64,000 nucleotides of DNA from Tichowtungia aerotolerans (lineage in GTDB: Bacteria > Verrucomicrobiota > Kiritimatiellia > Kiritimatiellales > Tichowtungiaceae). The stretch covers positions 868,001 through 932,000 of the forward strand of contig NZ_CP047593.1 of NCBI RefSeq assembly GCF_009905215.1, in the 5' to 3' direction. A model generated the notes under the pieces. The model had not been told where the DNA came from. It worked only from the letters and a program-made list of their open reading frames with translations, and searched no databases. Shown here in pieces: positions 7,085 to 15,572 of this stretch. Every line of letters begins with the position of its first letter. The first letter of the stretch is position 1. Both the position numbers and the translations under genes were made by a program.

Positions 7085-8065
7085 TTATCGCGCCAACAGT
7101 TCTGCGTAACGATTCGCCCAATAAGAAATAAAAATATCGGTTCCGGCGCGCTGCATTGCCGCAATATTCTCACGAACCATCGCCCGCAGATCGCCCCAGC
7201 CGCGCTCGGCCTGAGCAATCAGCATGGAATACTCGCCGCTCACATTATAAGCCGCCAGCGGCAGATCGGTTGTTTCGCGCAGACGCGTGATCACATCGAG
7301 ATACATCAGCGCCGGCTTCACCATTAGAATGTCAGCGCCTTCATCTTCATCAAACTCCGACTCGCGCAGCGCTGTGCGCAGATCGCCGTACGACGCCTGA
7401 TAGCCCTGTCGATCGCCTTTTCCCGGCGCCGACTGTTCCGCCTCGCGAAACGGGCCGTACATCGACGAAGCAAACTTGGTGGAATAGCTCATCAAAAGCG
7501 TATCGGTCAGATCGTTCTCATCGAGCGCTTCGCGAATCGCCAAGATCTGTCCATCCATCATTGCGCTCGGAGCCACGCAGTCTGCGCCAGCAACAGCGTG
7601 CGATACAGCAACCTTCTGCAACAGTCCCAAAGTCTCGTCATTTTTAACTTCTGTGCCGGCATGCAATGCCCCGCAATGACCGTGATCGGTATAAGCGCAT
7701 AAACAGACATCCGTAAAAACCGTCAGCTGCGGAAACTCTTTTTTGATCAGCGGAACTGCCTGTTGCACCGCACCTGTTTCGCTCCAGGCTTCCGATCCCC
7801 GGGAATCTTTTTTCGACGGATCGGTCAAGCCGAACAGCAGCACCCCGCCGACACCGCTCTCGGCCACCGGCTCCAGTTTTTTCAGCAGCACATCGGCGCT
7901 CATGCGGCTCTGCCCCGGCATGGCATCAATCGGCTCTTCCACACCCGTTCCCTCACGAACAAACACCGGCCAGATGAATTTTTCCGGTCCCGGCAGCGGC
8001 TGTCCGAACATGTTCCGCAGCCCCTCCGTGCGGCGCAGTCTTCTAAGTCGTACTTCAGGAAACAT
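7085..8065 (-). CDS. hemB: delta-aminolevulinate dehydratase (porphobilinogen synthase)
   Basis: 326 residues, full length. It condenses two 5-aminolevulinate molecules to porphobilinogen in the cytoplasm. The zinc-site cysteines are visible in DVCLCAYTDHGHC. The two active-site lysines lie in STKFASSMYGPFR and in MVKPALMYLD (Schiff base). It is the last gene of the minus-strand heme operon and follows a four-helix-bundle gene. Its stop codon is followed almost immediately by the ISL3 remnant, so whatever originally lay downstream has been replaced. Confidence 0.97.
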   Translation of the reverse strand: MFPEVRLRRLRRTEGLRNMFGQPLPGPEKFIWPVFVREGTGVEEPIDAMPGQSRMSADVLLKKLEPVAESGVGGVLLFGLTDPSKKDSRGSEAWSETGAVQQAVPLIKKEFPQLTVFTDVCLCAYTDHGHCGALHAGTEVKNDETLGLLQKVAVSHAVAGADCVAPSAMMDGQILAIREALDENDLTDTLLMSYSTKFASSMYGPFREAEQSAPGKGDRQGYQASYGDLRTALRESEFDEDEGADILMVKPALMYLDVITRLRETTDLPLAAYNVSGEYSMLIAQAERGWGDLRAMVRENIAAMQRAGTDIFISYWANRYAELLAR

Positions 8066-8107: not shown

Positions 8108-8710
8108 TCAGTTCTGTCCTTTCTGTCTATTCTCCACTCTGGCCTTGTAAAGCCGCTCGGAAAACCCGCCGCCCTTTTCAAAATAATCTGCCTGACGGGC
8201 CAGCAGCTTTTCTACCAGATAATGGGCCTGAGCTGAAAGCACCGCGCCCAGATTTGCCGCCCGCTCCTCCCGGCTCTGCGTTCTCCCCGACGAATTCACC
8301 CATGCTGCCGCAGCGTCCAAACTTTCCGGGTGCAGGTTCCGGGCTTCGGAAAACATCGCGGCATCATCCGTTTCCCATAACGGCAGCCCCTTACGCTGCA
8401 AATATTTTTTATAGTCCTTATGCAGTTCCCCCAGACGTCCCCGGGCCACATTGGTCAGATTCAGCTCCAGCTTTTTGGTCGTTGCGCTCAGCTCGCTGCC
8501 TTCCCGAATATTCTGAAACCCGCTGCGCGACGCCTGCACCATCTGGTCATGATGCCGATCCTTTTTTGGGATATACAGCTCGCAGAAACGGCACGTAAAA
8601 TCATAGCAGAGCTCCGCCAGCCAGTACGCCTTCAGGTTTCGAAAGCCGCTGTGCTTTCCAAAAATCCGCTCCGACGATTCCGAACTCAAAACGTGTCGTT
8701 TTTCATCCAC
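8108..8710 (-). CDS. four-helix-bundle (23S IVS-like) protein
   Basis: 200 residues. The first half (FRNLKAYWLAELCYDFTCRF and DQMVQASRSGFQNIREGSE) matches the four-helix-bundle family first described from 23S rRNA intervening sequences. A further helical suffix of about 100 residues follows, as in the four-helix-suffix subfamily. The start appears to be GTG at 8710, two bases past the stop of the hemC fusion gene and after a GGGGA site. It sits inside the heme operon between hemC and hemB. No enzymatic role is known for the family. Confidence 0.8.
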   Translation of the reverse strand: MDEKRHVLSSESSERIFGKHSGFRNLKAYWLAELCYDFTCRFCELYIPKKDRHHDQMVQASRSGFQNIREGSELSATTKKLELNLTNVARGRLGELHKDYKKYLQRKGLPLWETDDAAMFSEARNLHPESLDAAAAWVNSSGRTQSREERAANLGAVLSAQAHYLVEKLLARQADYFEKGGGFSERLYKARVENRQKGQN

Positions 8711-8711
8711 A

Positions 8712-10784
8712 TCAAATCCCCGTTTTTTCCTTCCTGTCCGTCAGCCAACATGCCAAATCAAACAGGCATTTCTCCACCGTCGCCATTTCCCCGACCACAT
8801 CGGCTTTGCAGCCGACGGCGGTCAATGCTGCACGGGTCGGGCCGCCGATGGCGAGGATGGTCTTCTTCGCCAGCGCATCGGCTCCCCACTGAAAAACGAA
8901 TGACTCAACGGCAGAGGCAGAGGCAAAAAAGACCGCATCAAACTCCGGGCAGCGGTTATGCGTAACAACCCGGTTTTCGTAAAGAACCACATCGTCGACA
9001 TCCGCGCCGGCGGCGCGCAGGCCCTCTGCCAGAGTCGTACCGGCCTTCTGTGAACGCAGACGCAGAATATTCTGCCCGTTCACAATCGGCGCTGCTGCTT
9101 CGAGCAGACCTTTTCCGCTGAAATCACTCTCCGGTATCAGATCGCAGCCCAGCCCGATCTTTTCAAGCGCCCGCGCCGTGCCGGAGCCGACACTCATGAT
9201 TTTCGGTAAACGACGCAGATCGAACTTCTGTTTCAGCAACCATTCATGGAAACAACGCACTGCTGACGGAGAAGTCAATGCAATCCAATCGTATTTGAAG
9301 AATTCCAAACAGTGGAAAACCGGCATCAGCCTGATAAGCGGCCGAACAACGGGTCGGCCGCCAAAGTCATAGACCGCCTGCACGGCCTGCGGCATCAGAG
9401 CATCGGAACAGGTCAACAAGATCTGCTTCCCGCCAAATGCGCCGAGTGTTCGATCAAACCCGCAGCGGGTGATCTCTCCGACGATGAAGAGTCCGACCGC
9501 CTTCTGAATTTCCGGCAGACTCGCAAGCGTTCCCCGGCAAACCTCTTCTCGATCCGATCCGGCTTCAAACACGAATGCGCAAGGCGTATTGCCCGACATA
9601 CCGTCCGCCATCAGTTCTTCCGCCAACTGCTGTGCGATGCCAACCGACATAAAAAAGACCACTGGCACCCCGGCTCGCGCCGCCTGATCAACCGGCGCCA
9701 CGTCTCCGCCCTGCAGGCGCGGCGTCATCACGGAGAAACCGCGGGCGACGCCGCGACGGGTCAGCAGAATTCCCGTATCGGCGGCAGCAGTCTGCATCGC
9801 GCTGATACCGGGAATCACACGGTTTGCCAATGAAAGGTCTTCAAGTGCCTCCACTTCTTCAGCGAGCCGCCCGAAAATTCCGGCATCCCCGCCTTTGAGC
9901 CGGACAACCCGTTTCCCTTTGCGAACTTCGTCGCACAGCATCCGGTTGATTTCGTCCTGCGGCTGCGAGTGAGCTCCCTGCCGCTTGCCGACATAGATTT
10001 TCTGCGTGCTCTCCGGAAGGACTTTCAAAAGCGAGTCATCCATCAGCGCGTCGTAAAGGCACACATCGGCGGTCTGCAGAGCACGAATGCCATCAAGCGT
10101 GCAGTGACCTTCCGTAACGCCTGCGCCGACAAAAGCAGCGGCTTTCACAAACAGGTTACGCATGGCGATCATGCGCGCATCGCCTTTTCGGAATGTAATC
10201 GTGAGCGCGCCCTGCGCTTCCGGCGTATCCAGCTCATCGAGAGGAATCCATTCGGCAATGCGGTCTTCCAGACCAAGACGCTGCAATGCCACACCAGCCA
10301 TAATAATCAGATCGAAGGTTCCATCGTCGACCTGCGCGATGCGCTCTTCAATATTTCCACGGATCGGCAACTGCGTCGCGGCAGGAAATCGGCTTTGCGC
10401 GTATTCAGCGCGACGCTGAGAGCTGACGCCAATCGTTCCCGGCTCCAGCGAACCGACCAGCACATCGCGCCGGTCGCCGGCAGCCGGCAGCCAGAACCAG
10501 TCGAGACCATCGGCGACCGGATCAGGCAGGTCTTTGGCGCTGTGTACCGCAAAATCAACCGTACCGTTCAAAACGGCGTCATCGAGCGTCTTCGTGAAAA
10601 AATCAGCCGGGCTTTCGCGCAGATCCGTTGTCCGATCCGCATCGCCGGGAGTTTCGAGTTCCAAACTTTGGAAAGAAACCTGCGGGAACAGAGCGCCGAA
10701 CCGCGCCAGCACATGATTTACCTGCCAAAGAGCGAGCGGACTGTTACGCGTGCCGGCCCTGAAAACTGTTGATGATCCGTTCAT
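8712..10784 (-). CDS. hemC-cobA-hemD: HemC-CobA(SUMT)-HemD trifunctional fusion with truncated HemC
   Basis: 690 residues in three modules. Residues 1-212 are hydroxymethylbilane synthase domains 1 and 2: GTRNS, catalytic Asp85 in HSAKD, SSQRR at 121-125 and IRGN at 141-144. Residues 214-455 are uroporphyrinogen-III C-methyltransferase, with VGAG, RLKGGDAGIFGR and PGISAMQTAAADTG. Residues 460-690 are uroporphyrinogen-III synthase. HemC domain 3 is absent, including the Cys that anchors the dipyrromethane cofactor (Cys242 in E. coli). The first 41 bases overlap the end of the cysG-hemA gene. Copies of the dispersed palindrome lie in the HemC part (10659) and HemD part (9303). Confidence 0.93.
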   Translation of the reverse strand: MNGSSTVFRAGTRNSPLALWQVNHVLARFGALFPQVSFQSLELETPGDADRTTDLRESPADFFTKTLDDAVLNGTVDFAVHSAKDLPDPVADGLDWFWLPAAGDRRDVLVGSLEPGTIGVSSQRRAEYAQSRFPAATQLPIRGNIEERIAQVDDGTFDLIIMAGVALQRLGLEDRIAEWIPLDELDTPEAQGALTITFRKGDARMIAMRNLFVKAAAFVGAGVTEGHCTLDGIRALQTADVCLYDALMDDSLLKVLPESTQKIYVGKRQGAHSQPQDEINRMLCDEVRKGKRVVRLKGGDAGIFGRLAEEVEALEDLSLANRVIPGISAMQTAAADTGILLTRRGVARGFSVMTPRLQGGDVAPVDQAARAGVPVVFFMSVGIAQQLAEELMADGMSGNTPCAFVFEAGSDREEVCRGTLASLPEIQKAVGLFIVGEITRCGFDRTLGAFGGKQILLTCSDALMPQAVQAVYDFGGRPVVRPLIRLMPVFHCLEFFKYDWIALTSPSAVRCFHEWLLKQKFDLRRLPKIMSVGSGTARALEKIGLGCDLIPESDFSGKGLLEAAAPIVNGQNILRLRSQKAGTTLAEGLRAAGADVDDVVLYENRVVTHNRCPEFDAVFFASASAVESFVFQWGADALAKKTILAIGGPTRAALTAVGCKADVVGEMATVEKCLFDLACWLTDRKEKTGI
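9303..9317. repeat. dispersed palindrome, 1 mismatch
   Basis: TTCCAA-ACA-GTGGAA in the HemD part of the heme fusion gene (encodes FHCLE). Confidence 0.7.
10659..10673. repeat. dispersed palindrome, perfect
   Basis: TTCCAA-ACT-TTGGAA in the HemC part (encodes FQSLE). Confidence 0.9.
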
Positions 10785-12219
10785 ACTGCTCCTGATGTTC
10801 GCCGATAATCCGGCGGCACTTCTCGAGGCTTTCGTTCAGATTTCCCATCCGGCTGCGGTGCCACTGCTTAAGGCCGTCGAGGTCGATCAATATCGGTTCC
10901 GGAGAAAGCTCTTTGAGCGCCGGATCAATATTGCGCGGCATGCCGAGGTCGATCAGGGTCACTTCTTTTTCATGATCAAAAAACGGGGCATGCCCGCTGT
11001 GCAGAAGATGGCCCGGCGCGTCCGCCGCGCTGACGACGATATCTGCATCACCCAGCCGGTCTTTGATGCTGTTGAAATCGCACAGCTCGACATTCTTCCA
11101 ATGCCTGGAAAGCTCGGGCCGGTTTCTGTGGTAGCACCAGACAATCTGTCCAACCTTTGGAAAACTGTTGGCGACCAGACCCTGCCCGACCATTCCGGCA
11201 CCGAGAATCAGAAGTTTCTTTTCTGAGAGATCGGTCTGGCGATCTTCAAGATAGCTCAGAACGAGATCCTCAATTTCTTCGAAGCGCAGGCCGGGAGCGA
11301 TTTCGGTCTGGATGTGCTTGGAAACGTGAAGCAGCGATGAAACCCACTCCTGCATCATACTGCCGGCCCATCCGGATTCCCGGGCAGAGTCGAATGTCTG
11401 CTTGATCTGAGCGGCAATGTGGCTTTCGCCGGGCGTCTGCGAAAGCATTCCCGCGGTGACCAGACAGAGGTGCCCGAATGCTTCTGCACCGCGATGAATA
11501 TAGAACTGTTCGTCGGAAAGCTTATCGAACCCGAGCACGTGCCGCAGAATTCCGTTATGAGCGGTTTCGTGCGAAACAACCGCAATCAGTTCTACACGGT
11601 TGCAGGTATTGAGGATCATAAATTCATGAACGCCCCAGAGCTGCATGAGCATGAATCCCGTGCGACCCGATCGAGGCCCGGTCAGATGAAACGGTTCGCG
11701 CTGTTCGAGTGACAGGTGGTGGTGGTCGGTTCCGACAACAACCAGCTCGACGGTTTCGATCATTTCCAGATGCCGAGCCAGACTGTCTTTTACCATCTTG
11801 GCCTGCCGACAGGACTGCCCGCCGGTTGCGACGGTCAGCGTCAGGCTGCCGTGACGGGCGATTGCCGGCGTGGTGAAATCGCTTTGCGCCCAGTTCCCGT
11901 CCACGCAACTGCATAGGATGTTTTTTTTGCGGCAATGTTCGAGTACCTGACGATTAACATACCGGTCGTTGGTTGCTGCAAAAACGAGCACCATGCCGTC
12001 AACATCGTCCGGCTCAAATTTTCGGGCAACATGGTGAATGGAAAGCTCTGAAAACTTGTCACAGAGGTCCGGGCTGACCACCGTCACTTCGGCGCCGGAA
12101 TCGATCAGGTGCCCGGCTTTTCGAAAAGCCACTTTGCCACCGCCGACAACCAGGCACGGCCGCCCGTCCAGCAGAAGACTGACCGGCATGGATTTGGTCT
12201 GGTTCAGTTTGTCGTTCAT
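10744..12219 (-). CDS. cysG-hemA: CysG(B)-HemA fusion: precorrin-2 dehydrogenase and glutamyl-tRNA reductase
   Basis: About 491 residues from the ATG at 12219; a GTG lies one codon upstream. The N-terminal 155 or so residues are the NAD-binding siroheme-synthase module (CLVVGGGKVAFRKA, FAATNDRYVN). The rest is glutamyl-tRNA reductase, with catalytic Cys in MILNTCNRVELIA, TAGMLSQTPGESHI and the nucleotide site GAGMVGQG. Fusions of this type are known in clostridia and Selenomonas, as I recall. It supplies both the first step (glutamyl-tRNA to glutamate semialdehyde) and precorrin-2 oxidation for siroheme. No ribosome-binding site is evident. GSA aminotransferase (hemL) is not in this window. 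Confidence 0.93.
   Translation of the reverse strand: MNDKLNQTKSMPVSLLLDGRPCLVVGGGKVAFRKAGHLIDSGAEVTVVSPDLCDKFSELSIHHVARKFEPDDVDGMVLVFAATNDRYVNRQVLEHCRKKNILCSCVDGNWAQSDFTTPAIARHGSLTLTVATGGQSCRQAKMVKDSLARHLEMIETVELVVVGTDHHHLSLEQREPFHLTGPRSGRTGFMLMQLWGVHEFMILNTCNRVELIAVVSHETAHNGILRHVLGFDKLSDEQFYIHRGAEAFGHLCLVTAGMLSQTPGESHIAAQIKQTFDSARESGWAGSMMQEWVSSLLHVSKHIQTEIAPGLRFEEIEDLVLSYLEDRQTDLSEKKLLILGAGMVGQGLVANSFPKVGQIVWCYHRNRPELSRHWKNVELCDFNSIKDRLGDADIVVSAADAPGHLLHSGHAPFFDHEKEVTLIDLGMPRNIDPALKELSPEPILIDLDGLKQWHRSRMGNLNESLEKCRRIIGEHQEQYERIINSFQGRHA
11096..11110. repeat. dispersed palindrome, 1 mismatch
   Basis: TTCCAA-TGC-CTGGAA in hemA (encodes SRHWK). Confidence 0.7.
11148..11162. repeat. dispersed palindrome, 1 mismatch
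   Basis: GTCCAA-CCT-TTGGAA in hemA (encodes FPKVG). Confidence 0.65.
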
Positions 12220-12297
12220 CACGAAGAATGGATTATCTGATACTGGAATACGGGATCCGTGAACAACTCACCATCTACCCAGCAATCCTTTACTCCA

Positions 12298-13281
12298 TCA
12301 TTCCTCTCTAAAATATTGCATGCTTGTTTTTTTAAACTCACGCCCAGACGCAAACAGCTCCCCTCCGGACAAACCACAGGCAGAAGAAATATCCTTAAAT
12401 AATTCCAGGGTTTCCTCCTGATTGGCCGTATGAATCATAGCATAGAGATTAAACGGAAAAGCATCAAGACGAGGGCGCTGATAACAGTGGGTCACTTCGG
12501 ACCGCGCAGCCACCCGCTGCCCGGCAGAAAGAATTTCATCTTCCGGAACCGGCCACACACACATGGCATTGTTTTTAAATCCGGCTTCACGATGATAAAG
12601 AATGGCTCCGATGCGTCGCAGCACGCCCTGCTCTTTCCACGCCTGCAGCGTTGTCAGCACGAACTCTTCGCTCTCTCCGATTTGCTCTGCAACCGTTGAG
12701 AACGGTCTCTCGACCAGAGGCATCTGCTGATCCATCGCCCGCACCAGCACCTTCTCCCGTTCGGAGAACCCGCAGCACGAAACAGCATCGGACGGAACCG
12801 GCGAACCGGATCCAGTTTCATCGCGACCATGAGGTGCCAAATCAAACACGACATCAATTTTAAACCGTCTGATGGCCGGAAGCTGAGAGAGTTCCAAGCC
12901 CAGTTCCTCGCGGAGTTTCGCAAAGCCGGAATTAAATTCGTCCTCAAGCATGGCGAGTGTGAACCAGAGATTCGGATAATCACCGTCTCCGACCGGCAGG
13001 CGCTCGTAACAATGCGTCACGCCGAGATGATTCGAAATGATGGCGGCTTTTTCTTCAAGCAACTCATCCGGCACATCCAATGCACATAGAATGCTTTTGT
13101 AACCGAGATGCCGGGCATCAAAAATGCCGCCAAAGCGGCGCAGCAATCCATCGGACTGCGCCTCGTGGAGCAACGCCAGCACCTTCGCTTCCGGAATTTC
13201 CAATGTCTGGAACGGTCTCGAGACCAGCTCAACACCGCGCTGGAGCTGAGTAAGGATTCTGTTTTCGACGGCGATTCTCAC
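12298..13281 (-). CDS. ahbAB: siroheme decarboxylase AhbA-AhbB fusion
   Basis: 327 residues made of two tandem Lrp/AsnC-like halves (1-160 and 172-327), each with a winged-helix segment and a characteristic THCYxR block followed by aromatic residues (NLWFT, NLYAM). AhbA and AhbB normally form a heterodimer that decarboxylates siroheme to 12,18-didecarboxysiroheme; here both are in one chain. The start is a GTG that overlaps the ahbD stop. The palindrome at 13198 encodes FQTLE near the N-terminus. Confidence 0.92.
   Translation of the reverse strand: MRIAVENRILTQLQRGVELVSRPFQTLEIPEAKVLALLHEAQSDGLLRRFGGIFDARHLGYKSILCALDVPDELLEEKAAIISNHLGVTHCYERLPVGDGDYPNLWFTLAMLEDEFNSGFAKLREELGLELSQLPAIRRFKIDVVFDLAPHGRDETGSGSPVPSDAVSCCGFSEREKVLVRAMDQQMPLVERPFSTVAEQIGESEEFVLTTLQAWKEQGVLRRIGAILYHREAGFKNNAMCVWPVPEDEILSAGQRVAARSEVTHCYQRPRLDAFPFNLYAMIHTANQEETLELFKDISSACGLSGGELFASGREFKKTSMQYFREE
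13198..13212. repeat. dispersed palindrome, 1 mismatch
   Basis: TTCCAA-TGT-CTGGAA in ahbAB (encodes FQTLE). Confidence 0.75.
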
Positions 13282-14219
13282 TCGGCCTCCATAAAGTTTC
13301 CGGTTCGTGCGTAGGCGCGGGCGGGACAGCCGGCAAACGGATTGAGGGTGCGCATGCTTTTGAACACCTCGGAGTTTTTATAAAGCGTTTCGAAATCAAA
13401 ATTTCCGGAGCGCAGTTCCCCGCACGGAAGATCCAGAAAGCCGCAGGTCTGCAGGACGCCGGTATGAGAAATAAAAACAAAGCCGCGGCCGCCCATACAA
13501 CCGCAGAAAGAAGGGTCTGATATATATTTGCGATATTGAGGAGCGCAGGTGGTTTTCACGCGAATCGGAACCTCAGTCGACCGTTGTGCAATCCATTCGA
13601 GTGCCTGCTCGCGGGTTTCCGGATCGAGCGCCAGATCCGCCATCTCTGCTCCGCGTCCGGTCGGAACCAGAAAAAAGAAGTCCATCGTTACAGCACCGAG
13701 TTCAATTGCTTTATCTAAGATCTTCGGCAACTCATCCACATTGAGCTTCGAAACCGTGGTATTGATCTGAAACGGAAGCCCGGCCGCCTTTAAGTGATCC
13801 AAAGACGCGACTGTTTTTTTGTACGCATCGGGAATCCCGCGAAACATGTCATGTTTTTCGGCCGTTGCCGCATCCAGACTCACACTGACCGCCATCACGC
13901 CGGAAGCTTTGAGCTTTTCAGCAACCTCGGTCGTCAGCAGATGCCCGCAGGTCGCTAAAACTACACGGCATCCCTTGTCAGTTGCATAACGGGCCACCTC
14001 AAAAATATCATCGCGCATCAGCGGCTCACCGCCGGTCAGAATAATCATCGGCTTCGAAAAATCGGCCAGCGCATCGATCGTCTTGAAACACTCCTCCGTC
14101 GAAAACTCTCCGTCATAGTCGCAGTCGCGCGCCGCACCGCGGCAATGCCTGCACTTCAGCTCGCAGCGTCTCGTGATCTCCCAGGCAACAATCCGAGGAT
14201 TTTTTCCGGAACTATGCAT
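13278..14219 (-). CDS. ahbD: radical SAM heme synthase AhbD, shortened C-terminus
   Basis: 313 residues. The radical SAM motif is CELKCRHC near residue 19, with GGEPLMRDD following. AhbD converts Fe-coproporphyrin III to heme by oxidative decarboxylation of two propionates. FISHTGVLQTCGFLDLPCGEL matches the family. The usual C-terminal cysteine-rich segment (C-x2-C-x5-C type, ligating an auxiliary 4Fe-4S cluster) is missing: the text goes from TLNPFAG straight to CPARAYARTGNFMEAE and stops. The upstream ahbC gene overlaps by 8 bases and ahbAB overlaps the stop. Confidence 0.88.
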   Translation of the reverse strand: MHSSGKNPRIVAWEITRRCELKCRHCRGAARDCDYDGEFSTEECFKTIDALADFSKPMIILTGGEPLMRDDIFEVARYATDKGCRVVLATCGHLLTTEVAEKLKASGVMAVSVSLDAATAEKHDMFRGIPDAYKKTVASLDHLKAAGLPFQINTTVSKLNVDELPKILDKAIELGAVTMDFFFLVPTGRGAEMADLALDPETREQALEWIAQRSTEVPIRVKTTCAPQYRKYISDPSFCGCMGGRGFVFISHTGVLQTCGFLDLPCGELRSGNFDFETLYKNSEVFKSMRTLNPFAGCPARAYARTGNFMEAE

Positions 14220-15390
14220 TCGAAATTTCCTCGTCGGTCAAATAGCACGCTGGATCAACACCCCATAATTCACCGCCTGCCTCACCGCGAGCGCGGAAGT
14301 TTCCGCCGCAAACATTCAGAAAACGGCAGGCCTTGCATTTTCCGGTCACATGAGCCGGCTTGTTTTTCAGCTGCGTCAAAAACTGGTTGGACGAATCGGT
14401 CCAAATTTCACTGAACGGTTTTTCGCGCACATTACCAAAAGTATGATTCCGCATAAACTGGTCCGGATGCACCGACCCGTCCCAGCTGACACAGCCGATT
14501 CCATTTCCCGAACTGTTGCCGCCATTCATCTTCAACAGCTCCATAACCCGGACGGCATCCTCCTCTCGCCCCTCTTTGAGCAGACGCATATAGAGATACG
14601 GCCCGTCACAGTGATTATCAACCGTCAGGATTTCCTTCGGTAGGCCGCGTGCGTGAAGGTCCGCCGTGCGGTCAATAATGCAGTCCACAACCCGGCGGGT
14701 TTCTTCATACGACAGGTCGTCAACCGAGGCACCGCGACCCGTGTAAACCAAATGGTAAAAACAGACTCTCGGAATGTCTTCCTGCTCAAGCAGGTCAAAT
14801 ACTCCGTTCAGATCCTGCACGTTGTGTTTGGTAATCGTGTAACGCAGGCCGACCTTGATGCCCGCGCGCTTACAGACGCGAATTCCTTCGAGCGCCTTAT
14901 CGAACGCGCCGCTCACTCCGCGGAACCGATCGTTGGTCTCACGCAGTCCGTCGAGGCTGACACCGACATAAGACAACCCGATTGCTTTGAGCCGCTGCGC
15001 GACGTCATCGGTAATCAGCGTGCCGTTGGTTGAAATGACTGCACGCATCCCTTTCGACACCGCGTATTCGGCGAGATCCGGCATATCTTTCCGACAGAGC
15101 GGCTCGCCGCCGGAAAAAAGGATAACCGGCGAGCCGAACGCCGCGAGGTCATCAATCAGCGCCTGCCCGTCTTCAAACGACATCTCATCGTCGGCACAGC
15201 GTCCGTCCGCATGGGCATAGCAATGCACACACTTCAGGTTGCATGCCTTCGTGCAGTTCCAGACCACCACCGGCTTCTTGTCCTCGGAAAACTGAAGCAG
15301 ATGGCTGGGCAAATCTTTTGCCTTTCGTCCATAACGCAGAGCATCCGACGGCTCCACCGTTCCACAATACAATTTAGAAATTCCAATCAT
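14212..15390 (-). CDS. ahbC: radical SAM 12,18-didecarboxysiroheme deacetylase AhbC
   Basis: 392 residues from the ATG at 15390 (MIGISKLYCGTVEPSDALRY, the typical AhbC start); upstream in-frame codons are unlike the family. The radical SAM cluster motif is CNLKCVHCYAH, and a SPASM-type C-terminus carries CKACRFLNVCGG. It removes acetate groups from didecarboxysiroheme to give Fe-coproporphyrin III. It heads the heme operon. The AGGAGAAAGG ribosome site lies upstream, and a perfect TTCCAA-N3-TTGGAA palindrome (15381-15395) is centred on the start codon. Confidence 0.95.
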   Translation of the reverse strand: MIGISKLYCGTVEPSDALRYGRKAKDLPSHLLQFSEDKKPVVVWNCTKACNLKCVHCYAHADGRCADDEMSFEDGQALIDDLAAFGSPVILFSGGEPLCRKDMPDLAEYAVSKGMRAVISTNGTLITDDVAQRLKAIGLSYVGVSLDGLRETNDRFRGVSGAFDKALEGIRVCKRAGIKVGLRYTITKHNVQDLNGVFDLLEQEDIPRVCFYHLVYTGRGASVDDLSYEETRRVVDCIIDRTADLHARGLPKEILTVDNHCDGPYLYMRLLKEGREEDAVRVMELLKMNGGNSSGNGIGCVSWDGSVHPDQFMRNHTFGNVREKPFSEIWTDSSNQFLTQLKNKPAHVTGKCKACRFLNVCGGNFRARGEAGGELWGVDPACYLTDEEISNA

Positions 15391-15395
15391 TGGAA
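15381..15395. repeat. dispersed palindrome, perfect, on the ahbC start codon
   Basis: TTCCAA-TCA-TTGGAA; the ATG of ahbC (15390-15388) lies within it, so initiation sits in the repeat. Confidence 0.9.
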
Positions 15396-15572
15396 GTTCG
15401 GCCTTTCTCCTGAATCGCCGCAAATCATATGAAGTCCTTCCGAATGCATCCACCTAATTCGAGACAAACCGACACTGCTGAATATCAGCACACAAATAAT
15501 TTCCTTCACTTTCAACCTTTACGAGAGCATGCTTCTGCGCTGTTTTTGAGCTTATTTTCTCAGGAGAATCCC

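Follow-up and report, generated by a model that had tools for sequence, protein, structure and literature searches.

Can a hydroxymethylbilane synthase work once the domain that carries its covalent cofactor is gone? The question is raised by one gene in the window, by which we mean the whole stretch of 64,000 nucleotides from Tichowtungia aerotolerans (contig NZ_CP047593.1) analysed here; positions refer to its numbering unless another locus is named. All enzymes of the HemC family have been stated to consist of three domains, with an invariant cysteine and a product that is grown on a fixed dipyrromethane (PMC3949521), and mutations of C261 in human HMBS are not tolerated (PMC9934555). A Cys-free enzyme would therefore be chemically unexpected.

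The fusion protein and its genome

The gene is a 690-aa ORF (8712..10784, minus strand) whose translation, Pfam matches and AlphaFold2 (AF2) model identify it as a fusion of HemC domains 1 and 2, SUMT/CobA and HemD (uroporphyrinogen III synthase). PF01379 (HemC domains 1 and 2) matches residues 9-205 (E 3e-44), PF00590 (SUMT) residues 218-423 and PF02602 (HemD) residues 468-673, without any match to the domain 3 model PF03900. The HemC module covers residues 1-212 (10149..10784), the SUMT/CobA module about residues 213-440 (9465..10148) and the HemD module about residues 447-690 (8712..9446), all on the minus strand. The initial annotation, made from the DNA alone, had claimed that HemC lacks domain 3 and the cofactor cysteine, that it keeps the catalytic Asp85 and the substrate arginines, and that the chain passes at residue 212 straight into the methyltransferase; all three claims were borne out. 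The alignment of the hemC model TIGR00212 ends at model position 212 of 293 and the NCBIfam SUMT models start at residues 216-218 of the protein, which therefore has no room for domain 3. The position of E. coli Cys242, the dipyrromethane carrier, is missing; residues 1-212 contain no cysteine, and the SUMT/HemD part contains 14. Asp85 (E. coli D84; codon at 10530..10532, minus strand, in the motif HSAKD), K84 and the substrate arginines are retained.

The genome, a single contig of 3.88 Mb with an estimated completeness of 98.4%, contains the fusion as its sole PF01379 match, and a PF03900 search of the whole genome yielded zero matches. PF03900 is a weak model that left several normal-length canonical HemCs unmatched in our survey of the phylum. 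Since it overlooks some real domain 3s, we built a dedicated profile (A2) from 16 aligned canonical domain 3s. This profile detected its target at E 1e-18 to 1e-25 in 7/7 positive control genomes, the majority of them missed or weakly scored by PF03900, and gave no match in the genome of the window, not even at E = 10. Marginal 19-bit A2 matches in two genomes (G012 and G112) were discarded, being located in frames without HemC. The search for a second hemC or an orphan domain 3 proposed in the initial annotation thus found neither in this genome with PF01379, PF03900 or the controlled A2 profile, and the full-length HemC that would have refuted the claim did not appear. This supports the conditional inference drawn there, namely that with a sole HemC the growing chain must be held differently or the cysteine must come from elsewhere.

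The fused SUMT is likewise the only one of the genome, as the sole other TP_methylase is, judged by its sequence, an RsmI-like rRNA methylase; the idea that the fused copy is a spare backed by a second SUMT was rejected on this ground. The SUMT modules of the window protein and its closest group (clade A, below) read YDAL or YDSL, LLTRR and GVGxxxxCT. The usual SUMT motifs, which we take to be YDRL, PLTHR and GPGDPELL, are thus altered in these modules despite the lack of a second SUMT in the genome.

Several tetrapyrrole genes accompany the fusion on the minus strand. They encode HemB (porphobilinogen synthase; 7085..8065, NF006762 above cut-off), a precorrin-2 dehydrogenase-HemA (glutamyl-tRNA reductase) fusion (10744..12222; PF13241, PF05201 and PF01488) whose gene overlaps the hemC start by 41 nt, a fused AhbA-AhbB siroheme decarboxylase (12298..13281; NF040708 and NF040707 above cut-off), an AhbD-like radical SAM protein of 313 aa (13278..14219) and AhbC (14212..15453; TIGR04546 above cut-off). 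With these genes on one strand, a siroheme-dependent heme route is encoded here; of the proteins expected for that pathway, AhbA/AhbB and AhbC are identified by the three models NF040707, NF040708 and TIGR04546. The AhbD-like protein has TIGR04545 as its best match, with 330 bits against a cut-off of 500 and over residues 10-232 only, and Pfam found no SPASM domain in it; its auxiliary-cluster region may be altered. Between hemB and the fusion lies a 200-aa ORF (8108-8710, minus strand) without a Pfam match, which presumably resembles the four-helix-bundle proteins of 23S intervening sequences.

Distribution and phylogeny of short HemCs

In a profile survey of the phylum, PF01379 was found in 89 of 145 genomes. 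Within the window's class, nearly all matches lie in long fusion frames without PF03900, G059 being one member with a canonical HemC. Two genomes of the window's own genus (G003 and G127) have no HemC match at all, which suggests that tetrapyrrole synthesis was lost or that the assemblies are incomplete. An alignment of 36 proteins of the phylum, none of them selected by the signature described below, separates two fusion clades. Clade A, which includes the window protein, has the order HemC (domains 1 and 2)-SUMT-HemD; clade B is a divergent version of the same architecture, with three members in which HemC is joined to HemD without SUMT.

Short HemCs are not confined to these fusions. NCBIfam contains a 241-aa hydroxymethylbilane synthase model, NF002202 (PRK01066.1). 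What we take to be the Chlamydia HemC sequence, used as a probe and not as evidence, scored 384 bits against this model (cut-off 251), and this directed the search to Chlamydiota. We also scanned a genome collection of 84,980 species with a DNA signature for [FY]FT-16 residues-HSAKD, which had matched most of the short loci in hand and no canonical locus. Among the matches listed, the titles are Chlamydiota, Kiritimatiellae, Omnitrophota and a few Bacteroidota and others, with the caveat that titles of metagenome bins may be wrong, and HemC ends after domain 1 in every listed locus with enough sequence. Short HemCs occur as free-standing proteins of about 210-250 aa, or joined either to HemD alone or to SUMT-HemD. 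The existence of free-standing forms, some without any cysteine, led us to reject fusion as the cause of the domain 3 loss.

Genome-wide counts point the same way. The 40 genomes behind 41 signature loci (among the matches listed) have PF01379 in 40/40 and PF03900 in 0/40. HemC is present in 126 genomes of a Chlamydiota sample of 151 and domain 3 in 2, so that 124/126 are short. In the Omnitrophota sample domain 3 is found in 44/145 genomes, and this phylum therefore holds both HemC forms. The short form is thus standard in the window's class and in Chlamydiota, and part of the Omnitrophota and some genomes with Bacteroidota titles have it too; it was found on the contigs L109, L115, L124 and L139, titled Paludibacteraceae, Tannerella, Prevotellaceae and Bacteroidales.

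One Omnitrophota-titled genome (G159) encodes two different short HemCs, the first in a SUMT-HemD fusion (L136) and the second in a HemA-like frame (L084). The latter HemC, short and Cys-free, forms the C-terminal end of a 502-aa ORF (L084:6199-7707, plus strand) that extends upstream of it and whose beginning resembles glutamyl-tRNA reductase, an apparent HemA-HemC fusion.

This distribution bears on the objection that the finding is an artefact: that the gene was truncated, that the contig is misassembled or that sequence missing from the assembly hides a full HemC. The completeness estimate of 98.4% leaves the last case formally possible. Against it, the genome is assembled in one contig, the comparison with relatives called for in the initial annotation retrieved the same domain-3-less architecture from dozens of independent genomes of the phylum, and the short form recurs in the 40/40 genomes of other groups (among the matches listed) and in 124/126 HemC-bearing Chlamydiota genomes. 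Recurrence across independent genomes refutes a sequencing accident, and we give an artefact of any kind practically no weight.

In a tree of 68 short and 25 canonical HemCs, computed with the signature columns removed, a single branch (100/99, present in all 200 bootstrap trees) separates the two forms. Adding canonical Omnitrophota HemCs left the split unchanged (100/99; 34 and 30 rows), and Chlamydiota-titled HemCs fall on the window's side. As far as sequences can tell, this shows that a single change separates short from canonical HemC, most simply one loss, and that the window's HemC module is a member of a separate and widely distributed lineage of two-domain HemCs without the cofactor domain. 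The tree is unrooted, and this phylum, together with Omnitrophota and E. coli, supplies most of its canonical set; it therefore cannot exclude that the two-domain form came first and the dipyrromethane-dependent form later.

Members of the lineage are closely linked to HemD. Of 80 signature loci among the matches listed, HemD is in the same frame in 37, lies no more than 1 kb downstream in 20 and is in neither place in 3 with sufficient flank; the other 20 have too little flank. HemD is thus fused or within 1 kb in 57/60 of the listed short loci with enough flank; for canonical loci with enough flank, it is within 1 kb in 9/34 and fused in none. The count of fused HemDs rests on a family-built profile without a locus-by-locus check. 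L120 presents an intact operon with cobA/hemD, hemB and hemL (the last two read from sequence), and L140 (Omnitrophota) has the order hemA-hemC-cobA/hemD-hemB-hemL with overlapping genes.

Conserved residues and candidate anchors

Apart from the missing domain, the active site is largely intact. All 117 short HemCs have R11, Q19, S81, K83, D84, R132, R149, R176 and Q198 (E. coli numbering); D84 is also invariant in 55 canonical ones, and S13 and R155 are kept in 98-99% of the short set (R155 in 98%). R131 is relaxed, with arginine in 74% of short versus 100% of canonical HemCs. The lid loop differs: here the short HemCs share a derived D-F-F-T motif, have lost K59 and do not keep K55. The position of Gly60 is occupied by Asp in 95% of them and by Asn in the remainder, with Asp in 0/55 canonical sequences. 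In the window protein this lid base reads SPADFFTK (residues 58-65; 10590..10613, minus strand), without lysine at the K55 and K59 positions and with Asp in place of Gly60. Part of the short set was selected by the signature, and the frequencies of FT and HSAKD within it are therefore biased. In E. coli, the lid residue K55 contacts the domain 3 residues Q243, E305 and V306 (PMC3945110), which makes the joint loss of lysine and domain coherent.

HSAKD alone was rejected as a marker of the short form, since several canonical Omnitrophota HemCs have it; the full [FY]FT-16-HSAKD signature is absent from the 55 canonical HemCs. One Omnitrophota HemC of canonical length (L201) carries HSAND instead of HSAKD, with the active-site Lys replaced by Asn, and keeps the domain 3 cysteine.

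Structure prediction agrees with the domain assignment. The AF2 model of the window fusion (mean pLDDT 88.5, pTM 0.87) gives separate Foldseek matches to PBGD and to SUMT/CysG structures, and its HemC module superposes on PBGD 4htg and 1pda over about 209-215 columns at 1.6-2.0 A. A free HemC of 226 aa (L145; pLDDT 92.8, pTM 0.87) matches E. coli PBGD 1pda over 216 columns at 1.8 A. The models thus predict the PBGD fold of domains 1 and 2 for the window HemC; they predict a fold, not an activity.

Conceivably, the short protein makes no bilane at all and has a regulatory or other role, with uroporphyrinogen III supplied by another route or the organisms being auxotrophic. The absence of a domain considered essential and the mutational intolerance of human C261 (PMC9934555) speak for this reading. 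It would have to account, however, for the conservation of the catalytic and binding residues over several phyla, for the position of the short protein as the only HemC inside complete uroporphyrinogen III operons, some of them coupled to siroheme or heme genes, and for HemC being among the core genes listed for 37 Chlamydiales genomes (PMC3899948). We regard it as very unlikely.

If the protein is a synthase, the issue is whether another residue replaces the lost cysteine. The canonical domain 3s inspected carry it. In the 117 short HemCs no Cys column exceeds 30%, and the HemC chains of L084, L120 and L145 contain no cysteine; a single replacement cysteine common to the short lineage was therefore rejected. 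The main rival to an anchor-free enzyme is that the covalent anchor moved to different cysteines in different subgroups. In clade A the candidate would be Cys228, the first cysteine of the window protein (10101..10103, minus strand), located just past the truncated HemC, where domain 3 would begin; it is present in 22/27 fusions of this clade, and the remaining five have a cysteine at position 242 (window numbering). In clade B it would be a cysteine at the position of E. coli A172, found in all ten members. Each subgroup could thus use its own anchor. Yet Cys228 sits in the SAM-binding loop of SUMT and is found in 0/7 clade B fusions, which also lack a cysteine at 242, so that it is not the general answer; no cysteine is common to the whole lineage, and the three Cys-free HemC chains have no candidate of their own. 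We consider a moved cysteine unlikely.

Alternatively, the chain could be anchored to another type of residue (Lys, Ser, Thr or His) or to a separate partner protein. In its favour, the active-site K83 and S81 are invariant, and HemD is nearly always fused or adjacent. However, none of the nucleophiles is invariant in the short HemCs and at the same time restricted to them, no conserved cysteine was found in the HemD part of the fusions, and no partner domain 3 is encoded. This explanation, too, appears improbable to us, although no experiment excludes a non-Cys nucleophile.

Possible mechanism and relation to known systems

Domain 3 and its cysteine are absent from the protein and from the genome, and likewise across phyla, and the catalytic residues are conserved. 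From this we infer that the two-domain hydroxymethylbilane synthase probably needs no cofactor anchored through a thioether and delivers its bilane to HemD. No biochemistry supports the anchor-free chemistry so far, and chain-length control without the cofactor remains unexplained. Porphobilinogen would be condensed in the same cleft as in the canonical enzyme, with the chain growing on a primer that is held non-covalently. In the simplest and most likely version, the first porphobilinogen would become ring A and only four rings would be bound. The product would then end in an aminomethyl group that the enzyme may either convert by deamination and hydration or pass on to HemD; a tightly bound free dipyrromethane would be the main alternative primer. 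The bilane would go straight to the fused or adjacent HemD and, in the window organism, feed SUMT and the siroheme-dependent heme route of the neighbouring genes. As a tentative and still doubtful generalization, Kiritimatiellia, Chlamydiota, part of the Omnitrophota and some Bacteroidota-titled genomes may use such a self-primed, cofactor-free synthase that binds four rings and channels aminomethyl- or hydroxymethylbilane to HemD.

There is a real chance that this mechanism is new. HemC is a near-universal enzyme of heme synthesis, and we infer from the loss of domain 3 that the textbook mechanism has a variant not described so far. Should domain 3 indeed be dispensable in a large lineage that includes Chlamydiota, the chemistry does not require the self-made cofactor, and the reason why most organisms possess it would become testable. 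A two-domain, Cys-free enzyme would also be a clean tool for studying chain-length counting and product channelling to HemD. Furthermore, automatic annotation credits proteins with a covalent cofactor even where they have no site for it, a practice that is called into question.

Our literature search, which left subscription journals mostly uncovered, found no paper on a HemC without domain 3. Chlamydial HemC has been annotated as an ordinary porphobilinogen deaminase (PMC3899948). Known before is the 241-aa chlamydial HemC model in NCBIfam; the missing domain is not discussed in the literature found. Like the window protein, this NF002202 type stops right after domain 1 and lacks domain 3, a point on which the model name is silent. 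The window protein scores 121.7 bits against it, below the cut-off of 251, and unlike the model it is fused to SUMT and HemD.

Compared with canonical HemC/PBGD (EC 2.5.1.61; PDB 1pda, 4mlq and 7ccx), the short form has the same fold of domains 1 and 2 and the same catalytic and essentially all substrate-binding residues, but it lacks domain 3 and the dipyrromethane cysteine, has a rewritten lid loop (K55 and K59 lost, Gly60 changed to Asp) and occupies a separate branch of the tree. HemC-CobA-HemD fusions of Euryarchaeota combine the same three activities in one chain, and the accessible part of their description does not discuss domain 3 (PMC11237513). A further parallel is provided by the CobA-HemD fusions of siroheme-dependent heme pathways, which share the SUMT-HemD order and the neighbouring ahb genes; the window protein differs from them by the truncated HemC added in front.
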